From Saprospiraceae bacterium (GTDB taxonomy: Bacteria > Bacteroidota > Bacteroidia > Chitinophagales > Saprospiraceae), in the NCBI GenBank assembly GCA_013140975.1, contig JABFRV010000156.1, positions 1 to 54,693 on the forward strand: DNA of 54,693 bases. The letters are read 5' to 3'. The translations under genes and the position numbers were made by a program. Every line of letters starts with the position of its first letter. Position 1 is the stretch's first letter. Below the pieces are notes generated by a model, which worked only from the letters and a program-made list of their open reading frames with translations, had not been told where the DNA came from and searched no databases. Positions 5,480-16,008 of this stretch are shown here, piece by piece.

Positions 5480-6295
5480 ATGAACGAAATTTATGGATTT
5501 GATAGTTACTCTCCGACTGAGATTGCCAAAAAAATAGAAGAAATAGGAGTAAAGAAAGTAAGGTTACCATTATTATCTATGGTCATGCTTGGCATTCTTG
5601 CAGGCGCATTCATTAGTCTTGGAGCTATGTATTATACAATGATTGCCTCAGATCCCGAGTTAAGTATAGCAACACGAAGAATTTTGGGTGGCCTGGCTTT
5701 TTCAACAGGTTTAATATTGGTAGTCATTGCTGGTGCAGAATTATTTACCGGAAATAATCTTATCGCTATGGCCTGGGCTGATAATAAAATTTCAACAGCT
5801 GAAGTTCTTCAAAATTGGTTGGTCGTATGCTTGTCAAATTTAGCAGGGGCAATGATAATGGCTTTTTTAATTTACAACTCAGGGCATTTAGAACTTGAAG
5901 GAGGGATCATTAAAGAACAGTATTTAAAAATCGCAACTTTAAAGTGCGAGTTACCAATGATAAATGCATTTTTTGCCGGTATTCTTTGTAATATTTTTGT
6001 TTGCCTGGCTATTTGGATGTCTTTTTCAGGACGCAGTGTTATAGATAAAATAATAGCAATTATATTTCCTATTTCTGCTTTCGTCGCACTCGGTTTTGAG
6101 CATAGTATTGCAAACTTTTATTTTATTATCCTTGGAATGCTAATTCAAACACAAGATGGTTTATCTATTGATGAAAGCTCTATTGGTATTGTTGGATTTT
6201 TCCATAATACGATTCCGGTTATTCTGGGAAATTTAATTGGAGGCAGTGTTTTGGTTGCACTCGTTTATTATGTAATTTATAAGAAAAACAATTAA
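5480..6295 (+). CDS. Formate/nitrite transporter (FocA/NirC) family channel
   Basis: The 271 residues fit the FNT family: six membrane helices, the N-terminal cytoplasmic helix, and family signatures such as 'FSTGLILVVIAGAELFTGNNLIAMAW' (about 75-100) and 'GILCNIFVCLAIWM' (about 167-180). A 'GFEHSIANFYF' segment (about 202-212) holds the conserved pore-region His. FNT channels form pentamers that pass formate, nitrite, hydrosulfide or acetate. Substrate cannot be read from the sequence. The nos cluster upstream favours nitrite, but hydrosulfide is also plausible given the sulfur genes downstream. The gene stands alone, with more than 100 bp on the 5' side. Confidence 0.9.
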   Translation: MNEIYGFDSYSPTEIAKKIEEIGVKKVRLPLLSMVMLGILAGAFISLGAMYYTMIASDPELSIATRRILGGLAFSTGLILVVIAGAELFTGNNLIAMAWADNKISTAEVLQNWLVVCLSNLAGAMIMAFLIYNSGHLELEGGIIKEQYLKIATLKCELPMINAFFAGILCNIFVCLAIWMSFSGRSVIDKIIAIIFPISAFVALGFEHSIANFYFIILGMLIQTQDGLSIDESSIGIVGFFHNTIPVILGNLIGGSVLVALVYYVIYKKNN

Positions 6296-7448: not shown

Positions 7449-7795
7449 TACTATTACGAAATCATTAAGTCCTATTTTGAAAATCTTTATTCGCTTTGGG
7501 ACAAACCCAACATAGCGTAATGGATATAAACAAGAATTTTAATGAAGGGAAATGGAAACGATTGTTTTAGAATATATACGCAGCAAAACATTACGATATA
7601 GGAATTGAACAAGTCAATTGCGGTAATTTTTGAAACACCGCTTAGCATTCAATTCAAAACCTCTAATAGAGAACTAATAATTATCATCAATTAGAATGAT
7701 ATTAATTTAAAATTTCAATGAAACTCATATTACATTTACGTCACAAATAAATTTAGTTCATATTACTATTCAGTATTCGTTATAATTACAAACTC
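7449..7795. other. 347-bp intergenic region, no gene recognised
   Basis: No ORF longer than about 16 codons with a plausible start was found on the plus strand. The stretch is AT-rich and contains TATCAT (7682-7687) and ATGATA (7696-7701) facing each other across eight bases. These may be part of the promoter of the DUF2231-like gene at 7796, but the arms are only six bases. No terminator-like hairpin with a T-run was seen after the AI-2E gene. Confidence 0.5.
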
Positions 7796-8290
7796 ATGAA
7801 TGAAGCACATATTCACTTAATAATTAATCATCTACCTATAATTTTTCCAATTGCCGGAATTATTGCAATAATTACAGGATTAATTTCTAAATCAGAATCC
7901 GTTAAGAGAACCTCCTTTCTTATTTTCATTCTTGGAGCTCTAGCCACAATCGCCGCAATGAAAAGTGGGGAAGGTGCTGAAGATGTAGTTGAAAAAATAA
8001 GTGGTGTTTCTGAAGTCTATATTGAGAAACATGAAGAGCTCGCAGAGCGATTTGCAATTTTTTCTTATTTATTAGGAGGAATCTCGTTGCTTGGACTTTG
8101 GATAAGTTTCAAGAAAAATGCCAATTCCAATATATTCAATGTGGTTATTCTATCAATTGCACTTAGCACATTATTTCTAGCACAAAAAACCGGAACATCT
8201 GGTGGCGAAATAAGACATACAGAAATTAGGAATGATAGCACAGTTCCTCCAGCGGAAAATAATAGTTCTGGAGAAGATAACGATGAGTAA
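7796..8290 (+). CDS. DUF2231-like four-helix membrane protein
   Basis: The 164 residues form about four membrane helices (near 8-28, 38-55, 85-102 and 112-126). The opening 'HIHLIINHLPI' motif, with conserved His residues at the membrane edge, and 'TGTSGGEIRHTEIR' after the last helix match the DUF2231-type pattern; such histidines could bind haem or metal. The last 20 residues are acidic and disordered. The gene is flanked by intergenic stretches and followed by the divergently unrelated but co-oriented Fnr gene. Domain resemblance is by motif only; function is unknown. Confidence 0.8.
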   Translation: MNEAHIHLIINHLPIIFPIAGIIAIITGLISKSESVKRTSFLIFILGALATIAAMKSGEGAEDVVEKISGVSEVYIEKHEELAERFAIFSYLLGGISLLGLWISFKKNANSNIFNVVILSIALSTLFLAQKTGTSGGEIRHTEIRNDSTVPPAENNSSGEDNDE

Positions 8291-8461
8291 AATACTGAAA
8301 AACCAAAATCCTTCTAAATTCGTTTGCCTTTGCTTACTAAATTGTGCTTGTCAATAATAGGATAGACATTACTTATTTTTGCTCATCTTTTTCTACTTTT
8401 AAAACTAAATTGAAGCTTTTTTGGGCTCTGGAAGATCCTATACTATTTCTGAAACAATTTG

Positions 8462-8469
8462 TTACTTTG
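8462..8469 (+). promoter_or_regulatory. -7-like promoter element of the Crp/Fnr gene
   Basis: TTACTTTG differs from the Bacteroidota -7 consensus TAnnTTTG at one base (or is TA-n-TTTG, one base short). It ends only four bases before the ATG at 8474, which would make the transcript leaderless or nearly so. The araC gene at 51093 has the same geometry. Confidence 0.5.
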
Positions 8470-8473
8470 CAGA

Positions 8474-9094
8474 ATGGAATTAAGCGAAATTAATGAGTTC
8501 AAGTCTTCAAGCCAAATGAGAGAGCAATTATTGGCATTTGGCTTTTCTAAATCCTTTGCAGATGGCGACACCATCCTCAATGAAAATTCTTACATTAAAG
8601 CGATTCCTATAGTCACGAAAGGAAATATTAGAGTCATGCGGACTGATGACAATGGGAAAGAGATACTGCTCTACTACATAAAACCCGGTGAAAGCTGTAT
8701 TATGTCATTCCTTGGCGGTATTCATCAAGACACAAGTAAAGTAAAAGCTATTGCAGAAGAAGAAACTGAGATACTTTTTATTCCGATTGATAAAGTAAAT
8801 TTATTAATACGCGAATATCCACAGTGGCTTGACTATATTTTTCGGCTCTACCATAAAAGATTTGAAGAATTATTAGATGTTGTTAATGCCATAGCATTTA
8901 AGAAGCTAGATGAAAGGCTCCTCGATTTTATTCATACAAAATGTAAATTAACCAAAAGCCAAACCTTAAATATCACTCACGAACAATTGGCAAATGAATT
9001 GGGAACTGCTCGAGTCGTAGTCTCCCGCTTACTAAAACAATTAGAAGACGAAGGTACTGTCAAACTTGGCAGAAATAAAATTATGCTTGTGTAA
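8474..9094 (+). CDS. Crp/Fnr-family transcriptional regulator
   Basis: A cyclic-nucleotide-binding-like beta-barrel domain (about 20-120 of the 206 residues from ATG 8474) is followed by a winged helix domain (about 140-206). The recognition helix reads 'ELGTARVVVSRLLKQLE'. The barrel has 'YYIKPGESCIMSFLGG' where true CRP proteins bind cAMP. The N-terminal cysteine cluster of classical FNR is absent, and the only other Cys is in 'HTKCKL'. So if it senses O2, NO or redox, the cofactor is not the FNR-type Fe-S cluster. I chose ATG 8474 over the TTG at 8459 because a -7-like promoter box covers the TTG. Two copies of a likely binding site lie just downstream (9090 and 9836), suggesting it controls the DUF2892 gene and the rhodanese/OsmC/thioredoxin operon. 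Confidence 0.92.
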   Translation: MELSEINEFKSSSQMREQLLAFGFSKSFADGDTILNENSYIKAIPIVTKGNIRVMRTDDNGKEILLYYIKPGESCIMSFLGGIHQDTSKVKAIAEEETEILFIPIDKVNLLIREYPQWLDYIFRLYHKRFEELLDVVNAIAFKKLDERLLDFIHTKCKLTKSQTLNITHEQLANELGTARVVVSRLLKQLEDEGTVKLGRNKIMLV

Positions 9095-9105
9095 CAAAAG
9101 TAGCA
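9090..9105 (+). promoter_or_regulatory. Putative Crp/Fnr-type binding site, copy 1
   Basis: TGTAACAAAAGTAGCA, with half-sites TGTAAC and (reverse) TGCTAC around AAAA, overlaps the stop of the Fnr gene. Its TGTAACAAAAGTAGC core is repeated exactly at 9836. In both places it starts 37 bases before a -7 box, which puts its centre near -41, the classic position for a class II activator of the Crp/Fnr family. No TTG -33 box is seen between. Confidence 0.65.
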
Positions 9106-9126
9106 GAACAAATCGTACTCTACATT

Positions 9127-9134
9127 TATTTTTG
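9127..9134 (+). promoter_or_regulatory. -7 element (TATTTTTG) of the DUF2892 gene
   Basis: Exact match to TAnnTTTG, 35 bases before the ATG at 9170 and 36 bases from base G9091 of the upstream Fnr-type box. Confidence 0.6.
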
Positions 9135-9169
9135 TAGCATATTTATTCATTTAAACAAAATCTAACCAC

Positions 9170-9376
9170 ATGCAAAAAAATATGGGATCAGCTGACAGAA
9201 TTATAAGAGTAATCGTCGCTATTGTTATCGCAGGTTTATATTTCGGAGGGCAAATTTCCGGCACTACAGGAATCGTTTTATTGGTACTTGCAGTAGTTTT
9301 TGTCCTTACTAGCTTTATAAGCTTCTGTCCATTATACTTACCTTTCGGATTTTCGACAAGAGGTAAAGGAGAATAA
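9170..9376 (+). CDS. DUF2892 family small membrane protein
   Basis: The 68-residue protein starts 'MQKNMGSADRIIRVIVA' and has two closely spaced membrane helices (about 14-30 and 35-52), ending 'SFCPLYLPFGFSTRGK'. This matches the DUF2892/YgaP-type membrane module, which is often fused to or next to rhodanese domains. Such proteins are thought to take part in moving or handling sulfur or thiol species at the membrane. It has its own promoter with an Fnr-type box immediately after the regulator gene. A single Cys (in SFCPLY) is conserved in this subfamily as far as I recall. Exact function unknown. Confidence 0.87.
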   Translation: MQKNMGSADRIIRVIVAIVIAGLYFGGQISGTTGIVLLVLAVVFVLTSFISFCPLYLPFGFSTRGKGE

Positions 9377-9590
9377 AGTATATTTTACTTATTTCTGAAC
9401 TCACTTTATTATCGATTCAGGTATCGATCTAAACTGCTATTTACTTTCAGGCTTACAAGAATAATGTAAAGTTACATTCTTCTCTTAGAGATTCTGAAAT
9501 GCAAACTAGTCGGTTAATTCTTTTGAAGCAATAAAGCTTTAATATTAGAAATAGTCCGTTAATTAAGGGGAGGATATATTATCTTTAATT

Positions 9591-9767
9591 ATGATTGGCT
9601 TGCCAAAACCAATTGAATTTCTAAATCTTGAAGCCTTTGACGCTTTTCAATTTAGCAAATATAGCGAAGGCCCAACAGAAATTTTCTTGCTTTTCACAAG
9701 AAAATTTCTGTTGAAGTATTGTGGTGAATTGGAAACCCTTCAATATCATTATGAACCTATCTATTAG
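9591..9767 (+). CDS. Possible short ORF, 58 codons, unrecognised
   Basis: ATG at 9591, preceded by the purine-rich run GGGGAGG at 9567-9573 (too far upstream to be a strong ribosome site), is followed by 58 sense codons to TAG at 9765-9767. The product starts MIGLPKPIEFLNLEAFDAF and ends YHYEPIY. It shows no signal peptide, membrane helix or known motif. A perfect 17-bp inverted repeat lies inside it, which is unusual for coding sequence. It may be a gene remnant rather than a working gene. Confidence 0.2.
   Translation: MIGLPKPIEFLNLEAFDAFQFSKYSEGPTEIFLLFTRKFLLKYCGELETLQYHYEPIY
9673..9713. repeat. Perfect inverted repeat, 17-bp arms, 7-nt loop
   Basis: CAACAGAAATTTTCTTG (9673-9689), loop CTTTTCA, CAAGAAAATTTCTGTTG (9697-9713). 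No T-run follows on either strand, so it does not look like an ordinary intrinsic terminator. Confidence 0.8.
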
Positions 9768-9835
9768 GTTATGACAATGACCCCTTTGACAAAGCTGTTG
9801 ATATAAACTTTTGAGGCAATAAATATTTTACTCTC

Positions 9836-9850
9836 TGTAACAAAAGTAGC
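9836..9850 (+). promoter_or_regulatory. Putative Crp/Fnr-type binding site, copy 2
   Basis: TGTAACAAAAGTAGC, identical over 15 bases to the copy at 9090, at the same distance from its -7 box (37 bases from first base to first base). The two flanks differ, so the match is not simply a recent duplication of the whole promoter. Confidence 0.65.
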
Positions 9851-9872
9851 TGTATATAGTGACAATTCACTG

Positions 9873-9880
9873 CATCTTTG
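9873..9880 (+). promoter_or_regulatory. -7-like element (CATCTTTG) of the sulfur/thiol operon
   Basis: One mismatch to TAnnTTTG, which would suit a weak promoter that depends on an activator. It lies about 40 bases before the TTG start of the first gene. Confidence 0.5.
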
Positions 9881-9919
9881 CAGCAGTAAAGGAAAATAAC
9901 TGAAAAATCTATTCTTAAA

Positions 9920-10108
9920 TTGAAATACATTTTAAATCATAAACCGACTCTGTTTGGCGCTATTATTGGCGCAATAGGTGGCTATTTATACTACCATTAT
10001 GTTGGTTGTATAAGCGGTACATGTTTAATCACATCTAAACCTTTGAATAGCACTTTATATGGCTCTCTTATTGGAGGCTTAGTGCTAAACATGTTCGAAA
10101 AAAAATAA
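9920..10108 (+). CDS. DUF6132-like small membrane protein
   Basis: This 62-residue product has glycine-rich membrane segments ('LFGAIIGAIGGYLYYHYVGC' at about 11-30; 'GSLIGGLVL' near 48-57) around 'GCISGTCLITSKPLNSTLYG'. The two cysteines (near 30 and 35) and following 'ITSxP' pattern match a small-protein family commonly seen with rhodanese/thioredoxin genes in Bacteroidota (DUF6132-like). The only start available is TTG at 9920. It leads a six-gene operon, separated by 18 bp from the rhodanese gene. The paired Cys suggest thiol chemistry or sulfur passage at the membrane, which is inference. Confidence 0.78.
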   Translation: MKYILNHKPTLFGAIIGAIGGYLYYHYVGCISGTCLITSKPLNSTLYGSLIGGLVLNMFEKK

Positions 10109-10126
10109 ATCTATAAATTAATAAAA

Positions 10127-10411
10127 ATGAACATAGCAAGAATTATTAAAGAAAATCAAGGAACAATCGTTGATGTTCGATCTCTTGAAGAATTTAAAGG
10201 CGGAAATGCCAAAGGTTCTATAAATATTCCATTACAGGAATTTTCTCAAAGAATTGCAGACCTTAAAAAATTAAAACAACCTTTGGTATTGTGTTGCGCA
10301 TCAGGAATGAGAAGCGCGCAGGCAACTCAAATGTTATCACAACTTGGCATTAAGTGTTGCAATGGGGGTTCATGGCTAGATGTAAATGATCTTCAATTAC
10401 AAACCAAATAA
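10127..10411 (+). CDS. Rhodanese-like sulfurtransferase
   Basis: A single rhodanese domain of 94 residues. It has the 'IVDVRSLEEFKGGNAKGSINIPL' start motif (about 14-36) and the active loop C-A-S-G-M-R beginning at Cys57, which would carry the persulfide; Cys56 next to it is an extra thiol. There is no signal peptide, so it should act in the cytoplasm, passing sulfane sulfur to acceptors such as thioredoxin. It is second in an operon with OsmC and two thioredoxin-domain genes, ten bases before the OsmC start. Family call is firm; the natural acceptor is inferred. Confidence 0.92.
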   Translation: MNIARIIKENQGTIVDVRSLEEFKGGNAKGSINIPLQEFSQRIADLKKLKQPLVLCCASGMRSAQATQMLSQLGIKCCNGGSWLDVNDLQLQTK

Positions 10412-10420
10412 ACAATAAAA

Positions 10421-10867
10421 ATGCAATCACATTCTTATAATGTAGATGTTCGATGGAAGGAAGACAGAAAAGGAGAGCTCTGCTCTCCTGAACTCAATCT
10501 TAATACAAATAATTGTATTGAAGTAGCAACTCCACCGGAATTCCCGAAAGGAATGCCAGGCATCTGGTCGCCAGAGCATTTGTTCACTGCTGCAATTAGC
10601 AGTTGTTTAATGACAACTTTTCTTGCAATAGCCGAAAATTCAAAATTGTCGTTTACGAATTTCAGTTGCAAATCAACAGGAATTTTGGATACAATCGATG
10701 GCAAATACTTAATGACTGAAGTAATACTCGAACCGTTAGTTACTATTAATGAAGAAAAAGACATGGAAAAAGCTGAACGAATTTTACATAAATCAGAAGC
10801 CGCATGCTTAATCTCGAACTCTGTAAAGTCGAAAATTACTATGCATCCTAAAGTAATACTTAATTAA
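10421..10867 (+). CDS. OsmC/Ohr family protein
   Basis: The 148 residues show the OsmC fold signatures. Cys62 lies in 'ISSCLMTTFLAIAE', the redox-active peroxidatic position, and Cys129 lies in 'SEAACLISNSVKSKI', the resolving position, both expected for a working thiol peroxidase. The N-terminal 'SPELNL...PPEFPKGMPGIWSPEHLF' region is typical of the YhfA-like branch. It would reduce organic hydroperoxides or deal with persulfides in the cytoplasm. It sits ten bases after the rhodanese gene and 15 bases before the DUF2892-like gene, in one operon with thioredoxin, a likely reductant. Confidence 0.92.
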   Translation: MQSHSYNVDVRWKEDRKGELCSPELNLNTNNCIEVATPPEFPKGMPGIWSPEHLFTAAISSCLMTTFLAIAENSKLSFTNFSCKSTGILDTIDGKYLMTEVILEPLVTINEEKDMEKAERILHKSEAACLISNSVKSKITMHPKVILN

Positions 10868-10882
10868 TTTAATAAAATTATT

Positions 10883-11134
10883 ATGCTGGAAAGAATTACA
10901 AGCAATTGGACTTATATAAGAGTCTTTTACCTGATTATGGGTTTAATCGTTATTATTCAGTCCGTAATGTATCAACAATGGTTTGGAGTCGCCTTTGGAT
11001 CATACTTTGCTTCTATGGGTTTGTTTGCATTTGGTTGCGCTTCAGGAAGCTGTTTCGGCAACAATACTAAAAATGAAGCTACCTCGCAAACAATAACTCA
11101 AGAGGTAGAATATGAAGAAATAAAAATGAAGTAA
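10883..11134 (+). CDS. DUF2892-like small membrane protein
   Basis: An 83-residue protein with two membrane segments (about 15-32 and 36-55) and a short cytoplasmic tail rich in Thr and Glu. The second helix ends in 'GCASGSCFG', two Cys five residues apart. Its outline resembles the DUF2892 protein at 9170 but it is longer and has the added Cys pair. It lies between OsmC and thioredoxin in the operon, and its stop is one base before the thioredoxin ATG. A role in membrane handling of sulfur species is plausible but unproven. Confidence 0.8.
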
Positions 11135-11135
11135 A

Positions 11136-11441
11136 ATGAAAAAAACATATCAAGATATAATCAATAGTGACAAACCTACATTAGTAGATTTTTTTGCAGA
11201 ATGGTGCGGACCCTGCAAAATGATGAAGCCGATCCTAGAAGAACTGAAATCGAAAGTTGGTGATCAGGCCACTATTCTTAAGATTGATGTTGATAAGAAC
11301 CCCCATGTTTCAGGTTCGTATCAAATAAATGGTGTCCCTACCCTCATATTATTTAAAAATGGTAAAATTAAATGGAGGCAATCAGGTGTAGTTTCTGCTC
11401 ATAATTTACAACAAGTTATTAATCAACATATCAATTCATGA
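11136..11441 (+). CDS. Thioredoxin
   Basis: A normal-length thioredoxin of 101 residues with the active site Trp23-Cys24-Gly-Pro-Cys27, the cis-Pro in 'NGVPTLILF' (near residue 70), and no signal peptide. It would reduce disulfides and persulfides in the cytoplasm. It overlaps the next gene (rhodanese-thioredoxin fusion) by four bases (ATGA, 11438-11441) and lies one base after the DUF2892-like gene, so it is clearly operonic. It is probably a dedicated thioredoxin for this operon rather than the housekeeping TrxA, which I infer from context. Confidence 0.94.
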
Positions 11442-12160
11442 AATATCTGAAATCAATATTAATTCTAAATTTACTAGTTTTGGTCGACATTAAAGGACAA
11501 TCGAAAAGTATCAAAACGAATTTATCTGCCATTGAATTTTCTAATAAAATAAAAGAAATAAAATCTAATCAGATTATTGATGTTCGAACTCCTGAGGAAT
11601 TCTCAAATGGCCACATTTCCGGTGCTATCAATTATGACTGGAATGGAAATTCTTTTGACAAGCAGATTGCTTTACTCAATAAATCAAAACCAGTTTTTGT
11701 TTATTGTCTTAGCGGTGGCCGAAGCTCATCCGCCGCTCAAAAGATGAGATCGGTCGGTTTTAAAATTGTATACGAACTAAGTGATGGAATAATGAGTTGG
11801 AGAGCTGCCAATCTTCCGGAAACAACGAACAAGTCATCCAATGTTAATGAATTGACAAAGAGTAAATTTGATAAATTACTCGAATCAAAAAAATTAGTAT
11901 TGATTGATTTTTATGCTGAATGGTGCGCTCCTTGTAAAAAAATGAAACCCTATCTTGATGAAATATCAAAGGAAATGTCAAGTTCTGTAGAAGTTATTCG
12001 AATCAATGCTGACGAAAATAAAACTTTATGCAAAACACTTGGTGTTGCAACCCTACCTTTTCTACTACTTTACAAGAACAAAAGTCTGGTCTGGAAAAAC
12101 AAAGGATATATAGACAAAACAAAAGTAGTAAATCAAATTCATAAAGCGACTACTAAATAA
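11438..12160 (+). CDS. Exported rhodanese-thioredoxin fusion protein
   Basis: The 240-residue product starts with a signal-like hydrophobic segment (about 5-17). It continues with a rhodanese domain (about 30-130; catalytic Cys90 in 'YCLSGGRSS') and a thioredoxin domain (about 138-240; Trp162-Cys-Ala-Pro-Cys166). Joining a persulfide carrier to a dithiol reductant in one chain suggests direct sulfur transfer or reductive release of sulfide in the periplasm. It overlaps the stand-alone thioredoxin gene by ATGA and closes the operon. Some relatives are annotated simply as thioredoxin-fold proteins; both domains here keep all catalytic Cys. Confidence 0.92.
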
Positions 12161-12320
12161 TAAATTACAAAGAAACAAAGTAATCGCTAATCATATTCAG
12201 CCCACGGTAAATTATCATCCTTTTATTTAATATTTTTAGTAAGATCCAAACATCTTATAATTTTAATACCCATTAATGTTCAGGTCATTTTTATTAAAAA
12301 ATATACATAATATCATAAAA

Positions 12321-12338
12321 TAATGATAATTATCATTA
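12321..12338. promoter_or_regulatory. 18-bp perfect palindrome, putative operator
   Basis: TAATGATAATTATCATTA reads the same on both strands. It lies 43 bases before the -7 box at 12381. Its 14-base core ATGATAATTATCAT differs by a single base from the core of the palindrome at 16519 in front of the tryptophanase gene. It resembles Fur-type boxes in composition but not in the usual 7-1-7 spacing; the regulator is unknown. Confidence 0.6.
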
Positions 12339-12380
12339 CCATGTGCAAGAGTAGTCATTCATCCAGGAATTGAAATAATT

Positions 12381-12388
12381 TAAATTTG
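12381..12388 (+). promoter_or_regulatory. -7 element (TAAATTTG)
   Basis: Exact TAnnTTTG match 34 bases before the ATG at 12423; likely promoter of the five-gene operon 12423-16303. Confidence 0.6.
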
Positions 12389-12422
12389 TAAGTAAATACT
12401 AACTAATAAAAAATAATCTAAA

Positions 12423-12842
12423 ATGAACGGTAAAAATAACATAGCCATCGGTTTCCTTACCATGGGGTTTTTTATGGCTTATGGATTTCTTTTAATTTAT
12501 TTACGCGATTTTGCACCAGGCAAAGTAGAATGGGCAAATTCATACAGTGTTGGAAAACACTTTGAAAGCAGGCTTGCTCACGTTCATGGCAATTTATTTG
12601 CTTTTCTCAATATACTGATTGGCTATCTACTTATACATTTTAGAGACAAAATTCAAAGCACAAAAATAATTTCATGGTTGGCATTATTAGGTTTATTAAT
12701 GCCTATAGGCATATTGACTGAAGTGTACTTTGGACTGCCTCCATTTCTGGTATTATTCGGTGCAATTACAATGACAACTTCGGTTATCTGGCTGGGAATT
12801 TCATTTTTTAAACTACGCGAACAGAGTTTTATTAATATATAA
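12423..12842 (+). CDS. Small four-helix membrane protein with His motif
   Basis: The 139 residues form four membrane helices (about 7-27, 55-72, 80-100 and 108-127). Between the first two lies a charged loop followed by 'ESRLAHVHGNLFAFLNILIG', with His residues at the membrane edge suitable for haem or metal binding. The size, four-helix plan and A-x-x-H-x-x-x-N pattern remind me of the styrene-oxide-isomerase type of small haem membrane proteins, but this is a tentative likeness. It is first in an operon behind a palindromic operator, and its stop is two bases before the next ATG. Function unknown. Confidence 0.82.
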   Translation: MNGKNNIAIGFLTMGFFMAYGFLLIYLRDFAPGKVEWANSYSVGKHFESRLAHVHGNLFAFLNILIGYLLIHFRDKIQSTKIISWLALLGLLMPIGILTEVYFGLPPFLVLFGAITMTTSVIWLGISFFKLREQSFINI

Positions 12843-12844
12843 AT

Positions 12845-14497
12845 ATGACACCAAATATTTTAGAAATGCAAATCGAAACCTTGAAAAGAATTAGATTATT
12901 AGCGATTCTTTTATTTACATTCGTTGCAAAAAGCTATTCTCAATCCGTGCCCTTCCAAATAGCCATTGAGCCAATTTCTATAAACGGTCTTGTTGGAATA
13001 CAAGCCTTTGCCTGGGGACAACATAATCAGAAATGGCTAATTATTGGGGGGCGATTAGATGGTCTCCATCGCAGACAACCTTTCGCAGCGTTCGATGAAG
13101 CCGGACATAACAATCGATTACTCGTAATAGATCCAGTTGCGCAACAAAAATGGTCAGCATCAATATCTTCTCTTCCAGTAAGCATACAAGAACAATTAAG
13201 TTCTACAAACATGGAATTTTATCAAGAAGGAGATTTTCTTTATCTGATAGGCGGATATGGATTCAGCAATACAGAAGATGATCATATTACTTATCCCAAT
13301 CTGTGTGCTGTTAATGTTCCAAAAGTAATAGATGCAGTAATAAAAGGGACTTCAGCTACATCTTATTTTAGACAAATAAAAGATACAATGTTTGCTGTTA
13401 CCGGAGGTTATCTCAATAAAATATACGACACTTATTATTTGACCGGGGGTCAAAAATTTATCGGAAGATACAACCCTATGGGGCCAACACATGGGCCTGG
13501 ATTCATCCAGGAATACACGAATTCAATTAGAAAATTTTTGATTCATGATGATGGCACGAATCTTCCAATAATTCATTTACCATCAATGTATGATGAAGCC
13601 AATTTACACAGAAGAGATTACAATGCAGTTCCTCAGATAATGCCAAATGGCCAAGAAGGAATAACCGCATTCTCCGGAGTTTTTCAAGCGGATATTGATT
13701 TACCGTTTTTGAACAGTGTAAATATTGACAGTTCAGGTTATTCCGTTAATAATGACTTCTCGCAGTATTACAATCATTACCATTGCGCACATATTCCAAT
13801 CTACAGTTCCTCAAAAAACGAAATGCATACTGTGTTTTTCGGAGGAATTGCACAATACTATGATAATTCAGGAGTACTGGTACAAGATAATAATGTTCCT
13901 TTTGTAAAGACGATTGCCAGAGTTACAAGAGATGCCAATGGCAAAATGATAGAATACAAATTACCAATTGAGTTACCTTCATTATTAGGTGCCAGTTCAG
14001 AATTTATACCAGTCGAAACGGTTCCCCATTTTAATAATGGGGTATTGAATCTTGATGCCATAAATTCTGACACCACCTTGTTAGGTTACATATACGGAGG
14101 AATAAGCAGCACTGCTGCTAATATCTTTTTTACAAATACAGGAACTGAAAGTTCGGCGAGTAGCCAATTATTTAAAGTATCTCTTATAAAAAATTCAACA
14201 TCAGGAACACATAGATTAAATCATCAAAGCAATGGAACTCTGCAACTGCAAATATATCCGAATTCAAATTATGGCCACTTTATAATAAAATTTAATCTAA
14301 GCGAAATTAAGGAAGTGAAACTAACAATAAGTGACTCCAATGGAAAAATAGTTGAAAATGAGAAGCTTAAAAACTTGCTTCCCGGTGAAAATAATTATGC
14401 TATAAAAATAAAGAATTTATCCAAAGGTGGGAATTACTTTGTAACTCTTGCCACTAAAGATGAAAAAATAACTCAAAAAATAATTATTGAACGCTAA
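12845..14497 (+). CDS. Secreted kelch/beta-propeller-like protein with T9SS sorting domain
   Basis: 550 residues: a signal peptide (about 15-33, ending 'KSYSQS'), a long body with propeller-like strands ('WLIIGGRLDGLHRR', 'YLIGGYGFSNTEDD', 'YYLTGGQKFIGRYNP', 'TVFFGGIAQYYDNS', 'LLGYIYGGISST'), and a C-terminal type IX sorting domain from about residue 470 ('LQIYPNSNYGHFIIKF' to the end). The repeated G-G patterns fit kelch-like blades. The protein should be exported across the outer membrane by T9SS and anchored or released at the surface. An alternative start at 12869 would shorten the N-region. Its placement in an operon with a cytochrome and a cupin is unusual for a T9SS cargo; what it binds is unknown. 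Confidence 0.85.
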   Translation: MTPNILEMQIETLKRIRLLAILLFTFVAKSYSQSVPFQIAIEPISINGLVGIQAFAWGQHNQKWLIIGGRLDGLHRRQPFAAFDEAGHNNRLLVIDPVAQQKWSASISSLPVSIQEQLSSTNMEFYQEGDFLYLIGGYGFSNTEDDHITYPNLCAVNVPKVIDAVIKGTSATSYFRQIKDTMFAVTGGYLNKIYDTYYLTGGQKFIGRYNPMGPTHGPGFIQEYTNSIRKFLIHDDGTNLPIIHLPSMYDEANLHRRDYNAVPQIMPNGQEGITAFSGVFQADIDLPFLNSVNIDSSGYSVNNDFSQYYNHYHCAHIPIYSSSKNEMHTVFFGGIAQYYDNSGVLVQDNNVPFVKTIARVTRDANGKMIEYKLPIELPSLLGASSEFIPVETVPHFNNGVLNLDAINSDTTLLGYIYGGISSTAANIFFTNTGTESSASSQLFKVSLIKNSTSGTHRLNHQSNGTLQLQIYPNSNYGHFIIKFNLSEIKEVKLTISDSNGKIVENEKLKNLLPGENNYAIKIKNLSKGGNYFVTLATKDEKITQKIIIER

Positions 14498-14587: not shown

Positions 14588-15046
14588 ATGAGCAATAAAC
14601 ATATTTTGATATTAGGCATGAGTTTGATTCTCTATCGTTGTGACAATATGTCCAATGTTAAAGACCAAGCTAAACAATCTTCTACACAACAAGAAACAAT
14701 ACATGAAGAGGAATCACATACTTTAGAATTTGACAATGGAAAAAAATGGAAAGTTGATGAGAATATGCTTATTCATATTCGTAACATGGAAAATTACATC
14801 AATGAATTTGCATCATCTAAATCGTTGGATTATCACACCTTGTCAACTACATTGCAAGACAATATAGAACTTCTTACCTCAAATTGCACAATGAAAGGCA
14901 AAGCACACGATGAACTCCATAAATGGCTATTGCCTTATATAGAGCTGGTGGATGAATTACATGAAACTGAAGATGCTGGTGAATCAGAAAAATGTTTTGA
15001 GAATATCCAGTCTTTATTTAAAACATTTAATCAATATTTCGAATGA
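14588..15046 (+). CDS. Small envelope protein of unknown function
   Basis: A 152-residue protein with a hydrophobic N-terminus (4-16) followed by 'LYRC', an imperfect lipobox, so it may be a lipoprotein anchored at Cys18. The mature part is helical and acidic and contains 'TLEFDNGKKWKVDENMLIHIRNMENYI' and 'NCTMKGKAHDELHKWLLPYIELVDEL'. The conserved C-T-M-K-G-x-x-H-x-x-L-H segment could bind metal or haem; I recall similar hypothetical proteins in Bacteroidota but no function. The last four bases overlap the start of the cytochrome gene (ATGA), which points to a joint role. Confidence 0.8.
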   Translation: MSNKHILILGMSLILYRCDNMSNVKDQAKQSSTQQETIHEEESHTLEFDNGKKWKVDENMLIHIRNMENYINEFASSKSLDYHTLSTTLQDNIELLTSNCTMKGKAHDELHKWLLPYIELVDELHETEDAGESEKCFENIQSLFKTFNQYFE

Positions 15047-16008
15047 AAGGAATAACATTCTACGCTCTTTGCGCTACAATATTAATCACATTAAGTATTG
15101 GGTGTCAAAAGAATTCAAAGCATACCAAATATCTAGATACTGCATTAACCGGGCAGGATGTTACATCCATGGGGCTATTAAAAAATAATTGTTTTAATTG
15201 TCACAATCCTGAATTGAATACAGTTACACAAATTGCCCCTTCAATGGATAAAATCAGGGAACAATACTTTAATAATAATAACAGTAAAGATCAGTTCGTA
15301 AACAAAATTATCAATTTCACCAACAACCCTACGATTGAAAATTCCATCATGCCGGATGCAGTTTCAAACTTTGGCTTAATGCCAAAGCAAATGTATAAAC
15401 AAGAAGAACTCAAAATTATTGCAGAGTATATCTATGAAAATGACCTGAAGTCAAGTGAATGGCTTGCTAAATGGAATTTATTTAGTAAAACTCCTGTAAT
15501 AGATACAAATACATTGAGCCCACAGGATCTAGGCTTAAAATATGTCACTTCGACAAAAGGTGAACTGGGTAAAAATTTATTGACGGCAATAAAAGAAAAA
15601 GGCAGTGCTGGAGCTGTTACATTTTGCAATACAAGAGCTTTTACTGTGACTGATAGTATGGCCAAGCTATATAACATAGGAATAAAACGAGTAAGTGACA
15701 AGCCAAGAAATGAAAAGAACAAGGCCAACCCTGAAGAATTGGCGAGCATTGAGAAATTCAAATCGTCAATACAATTGGGTGAAAAGCTAACTCCAATAAT
15801 GTCTGAAAAAAATGAAAAAGTAATAGGACACTACCCTATTGAAACGAATAAAATGTGCCTACAATGTCATGGTAAGCCAAATAAAGATATAGTTATTAAT
15901 ACCAAAAAAATAATTGACAAACTATATCCCAAAGATCGCGCAGTGAATTATGGTGAAAATCAAATTCGTGGTATTTGGGTAGTAGAGATGGATAAGAAAG
16001 CTAAATAA
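15043..16008 (+). CDS. DUF3365-type c-type cytochrome lipoprotein, two CxxCH motifs
   Basis: 321 residues. A lipoprotein-like signal ends at Cys21 ('LSIGC'). A first haem c motif, Cys-Phe-Asn-Cys-His (about residues 49-53), sits in a small cytochrome domain. From about residue 170 the protein follows the DUF3365/Tll0287-like pattern ('GSAGAVTFCNTRAF', 'IGIKRVSDKPRNEKNKANPEEL'). A second motif, Cys-Leu-Gln-Cys-His, lies near residue 276. DUF3365 modules occur in periplasmic haem sensors and electron carriers. The protein should be attached to a membrane on the periplasmic side. It overlaps the upstream small envelope protein and is followed after seven bases by a cupin gene. Redox partner unknown. 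Confidence 0.88.
   Translation: MKGITFYALCATILITLSIGCQKNSKHTKYLDTALTGQDVTSMGLLKNNCFNCHNPELNTVTQIAPSMDKIREQYFNNNNSKDQFVNKIINFTNNPTIENSIMPDAVSNFGLMPKQMYKQEELKIIAEYIYENDLKSSEWLAKWNLFSKTPVIDTNTLSPQDLGLKYVTSTKGELGKNLLTAIKEKGSAGAVTFCNTRAFTVTDSMAKLYNIGIKRVSDKPRNEKNKANPEELASIEKFKSSIQLGEKLTPIMSEKNEKVIGHYPIETNKMCLQCHGKPNKDIVINTKKIIDKLYPKDRAVNYGENQIRGIWVVEMDKKAK

Follow-up and report, generated by a model that had tools for sequence, protein, structure and literature searches.

A putative Crp/Fnr-family activator of sulfane-sulfur genes in Bacteroidota, with a predicted operator lying across its own stop codon

An uncharacterised protein of the Crp/Fnr superfamily is likely to serve as a class II activator of a sulfane-sulfur or sulfide regulon in Bacteroidota. 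A probability of about 0.85 is assigned to this reading, for which there are no expression or binding data. It is proposed that a dimer of the protein would bind the sequence TGTAACnnnnGTnnC, and that two identical 15-mers close to its gene in a Saprospiraceae bacterium would both be its operators. The centre of the operator would lie about 41 bases upstream of the expected transcript start, in the place of the -33 box, and the bound dimer would recruit RNA polymerase to a promoter having only a -7 box. The genes switched on in this way would export, transfer and oxidise sulfane sulfur.

The window, that is, the whole stretch of 54,693 nucleotides that was analysed, contains two exact copies of TGTAACAAAAGTAGC on the forward strand, at 9090-9104 and 9836-9850. 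The first base of each copy stands 37 bases before a -7 box, TATTTTTG at 9127-9134 in promoter 1 and CATCTTTG at 9873-9880 in promoter 2; the -7 consensus of Bacteroidota is TAnnTTTG. No -33 box is visible by eye at these promoters. Predicted operator 1 (9090-9105, TGTAACAAAAGTAGCA) spans the last codon and the stop codon of the regulator gene (GTG-TAA-C), and predicted operator 2 (9836-9851, TGTAACAAAAGTAGCT) is likewise followed by its box at 37 bases, forming an exact match to the composite element described below. The two copies share the pattern of operator and box, and differ in the 22 bases between. A shuffled window gives 2.36 matches to the 15-mer at up to three mismatches, so that inside the window only the exactness of the copies counts. 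The whole 3.97 Mb genome holds the two exact copies, none at one mismatch and 17 at two; as the reversed pattern is just as frequent (17 matches at up to two mismatches), it is only the exact pair that stands out genome-wide.

All of the genes concerned lie on the forward strand. The regulator, of 206 amino acids, is encoded at 8474-9094, with its ATG at 8474 and its TAA, at 9092-9094, inside operator 1. Target 1 (9170-9376) encodes a 68-residue membrane protein of the YgaP-like_TM family (PF11127, 9.1e-22). The second target is an operon, opened by a gene for a 62-residue DUF6132 protein with a TTG start (9920-10108; PF19628, 2.2e-06) and continued by genes for a single-domain rhodanese (10127-10411; PF00581, 2.8e-12), an OsmC-like protein (10421-10867; PF02566, 3.8e-16), what appears by eye to be a small membrane protein of 83 residues without a Pfam match (10883-11134), a thioredoxin (11136-11441; TIGR01068, 1.8e-33, over the cut-off) and a rhodanese-thioredoxin fusion (11438-12160; PF00581, 4.1e-20, and PF00085, 2.1e-25) whose N-terminus resembles a signal peptide by eye. 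Further downstream, at 12845-14497, is a gene for a protein with a type 9 sorting tail. Over 520 residues this protein is 67% identical to one encoded immediately after an exact match to that composite element in a further genome of the family (locus L238), and it may thus be a member of the regulon. A preliminary description of the window, made from its sequence alone, had claimed two exact 15-mers, each 37 bases before a -7 box, with the end of the regulator gene inside the first copy; both claims held exactly. It had reported no visible TTG -33 box, and none was seen by eye. Its DUF2892 target also held, this being the YgaP-like_TM protein, and its rhodanese/OsmC/thioredoxin operon held in part, since the first gene is that for the DUF6132 protein and the rhodanese comes second.

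Several other features of the window may be recorded here. The sequence TTACTTTG at 8462-8469 closely precedes the likely start codon of the regulator, and the regulator transcript might therefore be nearly leaderless. Between target 1 and operator 2 there is a perfect 17-base inverted repeat with a 7-base loop (9673-9713). A second copy of it was not found elsewhere in the genome, and so it is probably a terminator-like hairpin and not a mobile repeat; an RNA family search of 7500-13000 gave no match. A very weak third candidate operator (12344-12388, forward strand) is degenerate, with six of the nine fixed bases, and stands 37 bases before a perfect TAAATTTG, upstream of the genes for a 139-residue protein and the type 9-secreted protein. 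Among the 72 TAnnTTTG boxes in the window three, including the true one, score at least 6, against about 0.7 expected, and this candidate, while possible, may well be due to chance. The 83-residue protein resembles, by eye only, proteins of 79-80 residues behind the sites at L206 and L208. A cytochrome c-like plus Tll0287-like protein is encoded at 15043-16008, and Tll0287-like proteins are found behind 3 of 110 sites elsewhere. Near the cluster, at 5480-6295, is a gene for a protein of the formate/nitrite-transporter family, some relatives of which carry hydrosulfide.

The operator and the box at its 37-base offset can be combined in a composite element, TGTAACnnnnGTnnC-N22-NAnnTTTG. This composite has four exact matches in the genome of the window, at 9090 and 9836 and, elsewhere, at C70:19867 and C70:20739. 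At up to two mismatches the composite and its control are alike (44 and 46 matches), and thus only exact matches are informative. Three other candidates were set aside. The plain palindrome TGTAACnnnnGTTACA proved too strict as a motif, as the downstream half in close relatives is mostly GTArC; a perfect TGTAACnnnnGTTACT at C132:49476 lies inside an open reading frame on the opposite strand and was dropped as chance; and a one-mismatch composite at C133:15921 is followed for about 900 bases by no open reading frame of at least 80 residues starting on its strand.

A survey of 149 genomes of the order returned 116 matches to the composite, in 65 genomes, compared with 10 for the reversed control. 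A search of 60 genomes with the spacing left free between 27 and 47 bases gave 111 matches, of which 60 fell at 37, whereas the other 20 offsets averaged 2.55 and reached at most 7. The reversed control gave 103 matches over the same 21 offsets, about 4.9 at each, so that what is raised is not the total but only the peak at 37. The site, its spacing and its conservation are in this sense shown. The composite also follows the regulator from genome to genome. A homologue of the regulator (E<=1e-20) is encoded in 101 genomes, 64 of which have the composite, against 1 of the 48 that lack such a homologue (Fisher p 2e-14); the 10 control matches split evenly, five and five. An exact match is lacking in 37 of the 101 genomes with a homologue. 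Most of the 101 carry only a distant relative of the regulator, about 30-47% identical, and the occurrence of sites in such genomes implies that the operator is common to a wider branch. A link between site and regulator is thus shown by co-occurrence, as it is by position and by covariation, both described below.

The position of the operator was followed in 110 loci around regulator genes. Thirty of them, the window's own included, belong to the same order as the window; the other 80 are in named genomes and contain the best of the 164 relatives found there. An operator was called where TGTAACnnnnGTnnC was matched with at most one mismatch in its nine fixed bases. In 69 of the 102 distinct loci, among them that of the window, the operator lies exactly on the stop codon of the regulator gene; in the other 33 it does not. 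A TAnnTTTG box with no more than one mismatch follows at exactly 37 bases in 61 of the 69, which include loci of Pedobacter, Sphingobacterium, Chitinophagaceae, Emticicia, Fluviicola, Flavobacterium and Elizabethkingia. Among the 69, 67 have xTG as the last codon (for Val in 32, Met in 26 and Leu in 9), and all terminate with TAA (63) or TGA (6); in the remaining 33 loci, xTG is the last codon in four and TAG the stop codon in ten. The xTG count is partly a consequence of how the motif was defined. Nevertheless, the codons for Val, Met and Leu share the same bases TG, as would be expected if it is the DNA that is conserved. Under the main reading, the end of the regulator gene would in many Bacteroidota also serve to control the gene that follows, with binding itself inferred.

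Six loci with relatives of about 42-48% identity (L030, L033, L034, L035, L037 and L038) carry the same operator on their own stop codon, and in three of these (L030, L035 and L038) the protein has ESCAM or ETCAM, then CC. The six are likely to form a second branch, probably also linked to sulfur. In three loci a composite site precedes the gene for the regulator (L107 at 4872, L103 at 4323 and L118 at 1838), which suggests autoregulation in some genomes.

The content of the regulon is also shown. Within the genome of the window, the four composites precede the gene for the YgaP-type membrane protein, the DUF6132-rhodanese-OsmC-thioredoxin operon, a gene for a TauE/SafE-type protein (C70:19867) and a gene for a 470-residue MBL-rhodanese protein resembling persulfide dioxygenases (C70:20739), which is followed by genes for a rhodanese and a TPMT-like methyltransferase. 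The MBL part of the 470-residue protein was assigned by homology to proteins found downstream of sites across the order. In total, rhodanese domains are matched 12 times in this genome and TauE domains 7 times. Across the order, with the genome of the window excluded, 111 distinct sites are followed by 110 open reading frames, one site having none. Rhodanese domains are found in 48 of the products, Lactamase_B in 22 and TauE in 18, with Sulf_transp, Pyr_redox_2 and Thioredoxin in four each and TPMT, Tll0287-like and DUF983 in three each; these families may overlap within one protein. Clustering by similarity sets the TauE-like (18) and YeeE/YedE-like (4) proteins apart from a cluster of 54 that opens with MBL-rhodanese proteins, and Rhodanese, TauE and Sulf_transp (YeeE/YedE) were accordingly taken as disjoint, which was not checked member by member. 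On this assumption, about 70 of the 110 carry one of the three. A further 19 are singletons, many of them seemingly spurious or unrelated.

The sites near the regulators number 124, of which 109 are distinct. In 100 of these 109 a homologue (E<=1e-3) of a reference protein is encoded within 700 bases downstream, the reference proteins being drawn from the two gene clusters with the regulator excluded. Three of the 109 precede the regulator itself and six could not be assigned, three of them cut by the end of the locus. A first classification had left 43 of the 124 sites unassigned, largely owing to its start-codon rule and to locus ends, and was replaced. The near-regulator set is biased by gene neighbourhood, a bias from which the order-wide set is free. 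Taken together, these surveys support the overall interpretation of the preliminary description. The distribution of the element is not random, each of its four exact composites standing before a sulfur-type gene; it is conserved before related genes, in the near-regulator and order-wide sets alike; and its fixed spacing held. The regulon had been guessed to serve sulfane-sulfur or peroxide handling. The first half of this guess is well supported and the second is weak, as OsmC is the best match behind only 2 of the 109 sites and a single open reading frame (L071) appears peroxiredoxin-like by eye. The class II activator position that it proposed remains inferred, from geometry only.

The regulator meets the definition of the Crp/Fnr superfamily, with an N-terminal cNMP-binding-like domain (PF00027, 2.3e-12) and a C-terminal Crp-type helix-turn-helix (HTH_Crp_2, PF13545, 2.6e-11), both over the cut-off. 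At least 50 fold matches of its structure model (pLDDT 75, pTM 0.55) are CRP-family structures by title. Of its two cysteines, Cys75 is shared by every relative compared, 85 close ones (at least 60% identity) and 13 more distant ones, whereas Cys157 is found in only 9 of the 85; an extra cysteine at position 81 is present in 9 of the 13 distant relatives. The model is weak at residues 77-85, and no geometry is therefore claimed around Cys75.

Like Escherichia coli CRP at class II promoters, the protein has the two-domain CRP fold and a predicted operator centred near -41, and two arginines of its recognition helix, Arg180 and Arg185, are invariant among its relatives. The CRP site is a 16-base dyad, with a geometry as in this operator. 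The two differ in that the operator reads TGTAAC where the CRP half-site is TGTGA, in the Bacteroidota -7 box, and in the residue aligned with CRP Glu181, which is Val in most relatives. CRP Glu181 contacts DNA (PMC4868304, PMC3265434). At base 4 the operator has G instead of A in 7 of the 8 loci where this residue is Ala, Thr or Ser but in 1 of the 61 with Val (p 6e-8). This grouping was picked after the data had been seen; with all non-Val loci pooled, Lys and Glu added, G is found in 7 of 11 (p 1.7e-6). The exceptions are L040 (Val), which has G, L071 (Thr), which has A, and L106 (Thr), which has both, in addition to the Lys and Glu loci, which have A. On the best tree each trait changes seven times, with only two independent pairs on well supported branches. 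A tree-based test of covariation on those branches was not significant, and with two pairs a phylogenetically corrected test is without power. Classical Glu181 mutants of CRP are reported to show a similar shift in specificity.

As for the signal, the cAMP contacts of CRP, Gly71, Glu72 and Arg82 (PMC4868304) together with Ser83, are not met; the Gly71-Glu72 and Arg82-Ser83 positions hold other residues in a profile alignment with 4bh9, which is gapped in the loop. FNR iron-sulfur regulators have four cluster-ligating cysteines, and these are lacking also, Cys75 alone being conserved. Without aligned cAMP contacts or a four-cysteine motif, and with Cys75 invariant, a persulfide or polysulfide is inferred to be the most likely signal. 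Persulfide, polysulfide or sulfide would probably be perceived through Cys75 in what was formerly the cyclic-nucleotide pocket. The regulators SqrR/BigR (ArsR family), CstR (CsoR family) and FisR have an output of a similar kind, namely rhodanese, a persulfide dioxygenase-like MBL protein and an exporter, but belong to other protein families. Known persulfide sensors use two or three cysteines (PMC9774590, section 6), and the criterion drawn from CstR, SqrR, BigR and FisR, at least two conserved cysteines forming di- to tetrasulfide bonds, is not met by a protein with one invariant cysteine. The best match by sequence among solved structures (2.1e-28) is a Crp/Fnr protein of Eubacterium rectale, 3dv8, in which a cysteine is aligned with Cys75. 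It is only 27% identical and has a second cysteine six residues on, where 83 of the 85 close relatives have Gly.

The inference of activation rests on geometry alone. The fixed spacing between operator and -7 box is seen; the position near -41 depends on the expected start, placed using the usual distance from a -7 box. An operator centred there would cover the place of the -33 box, and it is from this that activation is inferred. A bolder reading holds that this Crp/Fnr-family protein is the main reactive-sulfur sensor of Bacteroidota, its single Cys75 reading persulfide in a converted cyclic-nucleotide pocket, with an operator that, in much of the phylum, has become fused over the stop codon of the regulator gene. 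The balance of the evidence leaves this slightly on the doubtful side.

Among the alternatives, the one that survives best, though unlikely, is that operator and regulon are as described while the regulator represses or responds to another signal, such as nitric oxide, oxygen or redox state, sulfite or thiosulfate, the sulfur genes being one output among others. Crp/Fnr proteins sense many signals, one invariant cysteine is not in itself specific for persulfide, and the targets include OsmC, the peroxiredoxin-like frame at L071, Tll0287-like, DUF983 and TPMT proteins. Against another signal, rhodanese, MBL-rhodanese, TauE and YeeE/YedE proteins dominate the targets, and the protein, with its two cysteines, lacks the four-cysteine cluster motif of Fnr. 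Against repression, the operator is at the class II position and no -33 box is seen by eye, which argues for activation. It is very unlikely that a different Crp/Fnr protein of the genome binds the sites in place of the neighbour. The genome does have six cNMP_binding matches in all, and the operator is common to distant relatives in other genomes; however, no protein of the genome but the neighbour reaches E<=1e-20 against the neighbour's family, the stop codon of neighbour-type genes carries the operator in many genomes, and both the covariation of residue 181 with base 4 and the correlation in presence and absence tie the site to this protein. That the repeat arose by chance, or when part of a promoter was recently duplicated, might find support in the mere two occurrences of the exact 15-mer in the genome, but is all but excluded by conservation and fixed spacing across many genomes and by the 22 bases between operator and box, which the two copies do not share.

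The control of sulfide and persulfide has been studied in depth in Pseudomonadota and Bacillota. A 2022 review names CstR, SqrR/BigR, PigS and FisR, with Crp appearing only twice, both times in its reference list (PMC9774590). No description of the present regulon was found in the literature searched, most subscription journals and the databases of predicted regulons being outside the scope of the search. What appears to be new here is the regulon of a Crp/Fnr activator and the placement of its operator, and probably the signal, activation and signal both being inferred.

Within the literature searched, no named regulator of sulfide or persulfide was found for Bacteroidota. The protein described here is a candidate for that role, supplied with an operator, a spacing rule and a gene list, and is thus open to test. 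The covariation of residue 181 with base 4 offers a natural example of altered CRP-type DNA specificity, and the regulon points to uncharacterised genes, those for the DUF6132, DUF983, Tll0287-like and type 9-secreted proteins, as related to sulfur. Should the bolder reading prove true, the classic CRP switch would have been rewired in these bacteria to respond to sulfur instead of a nucleotide.
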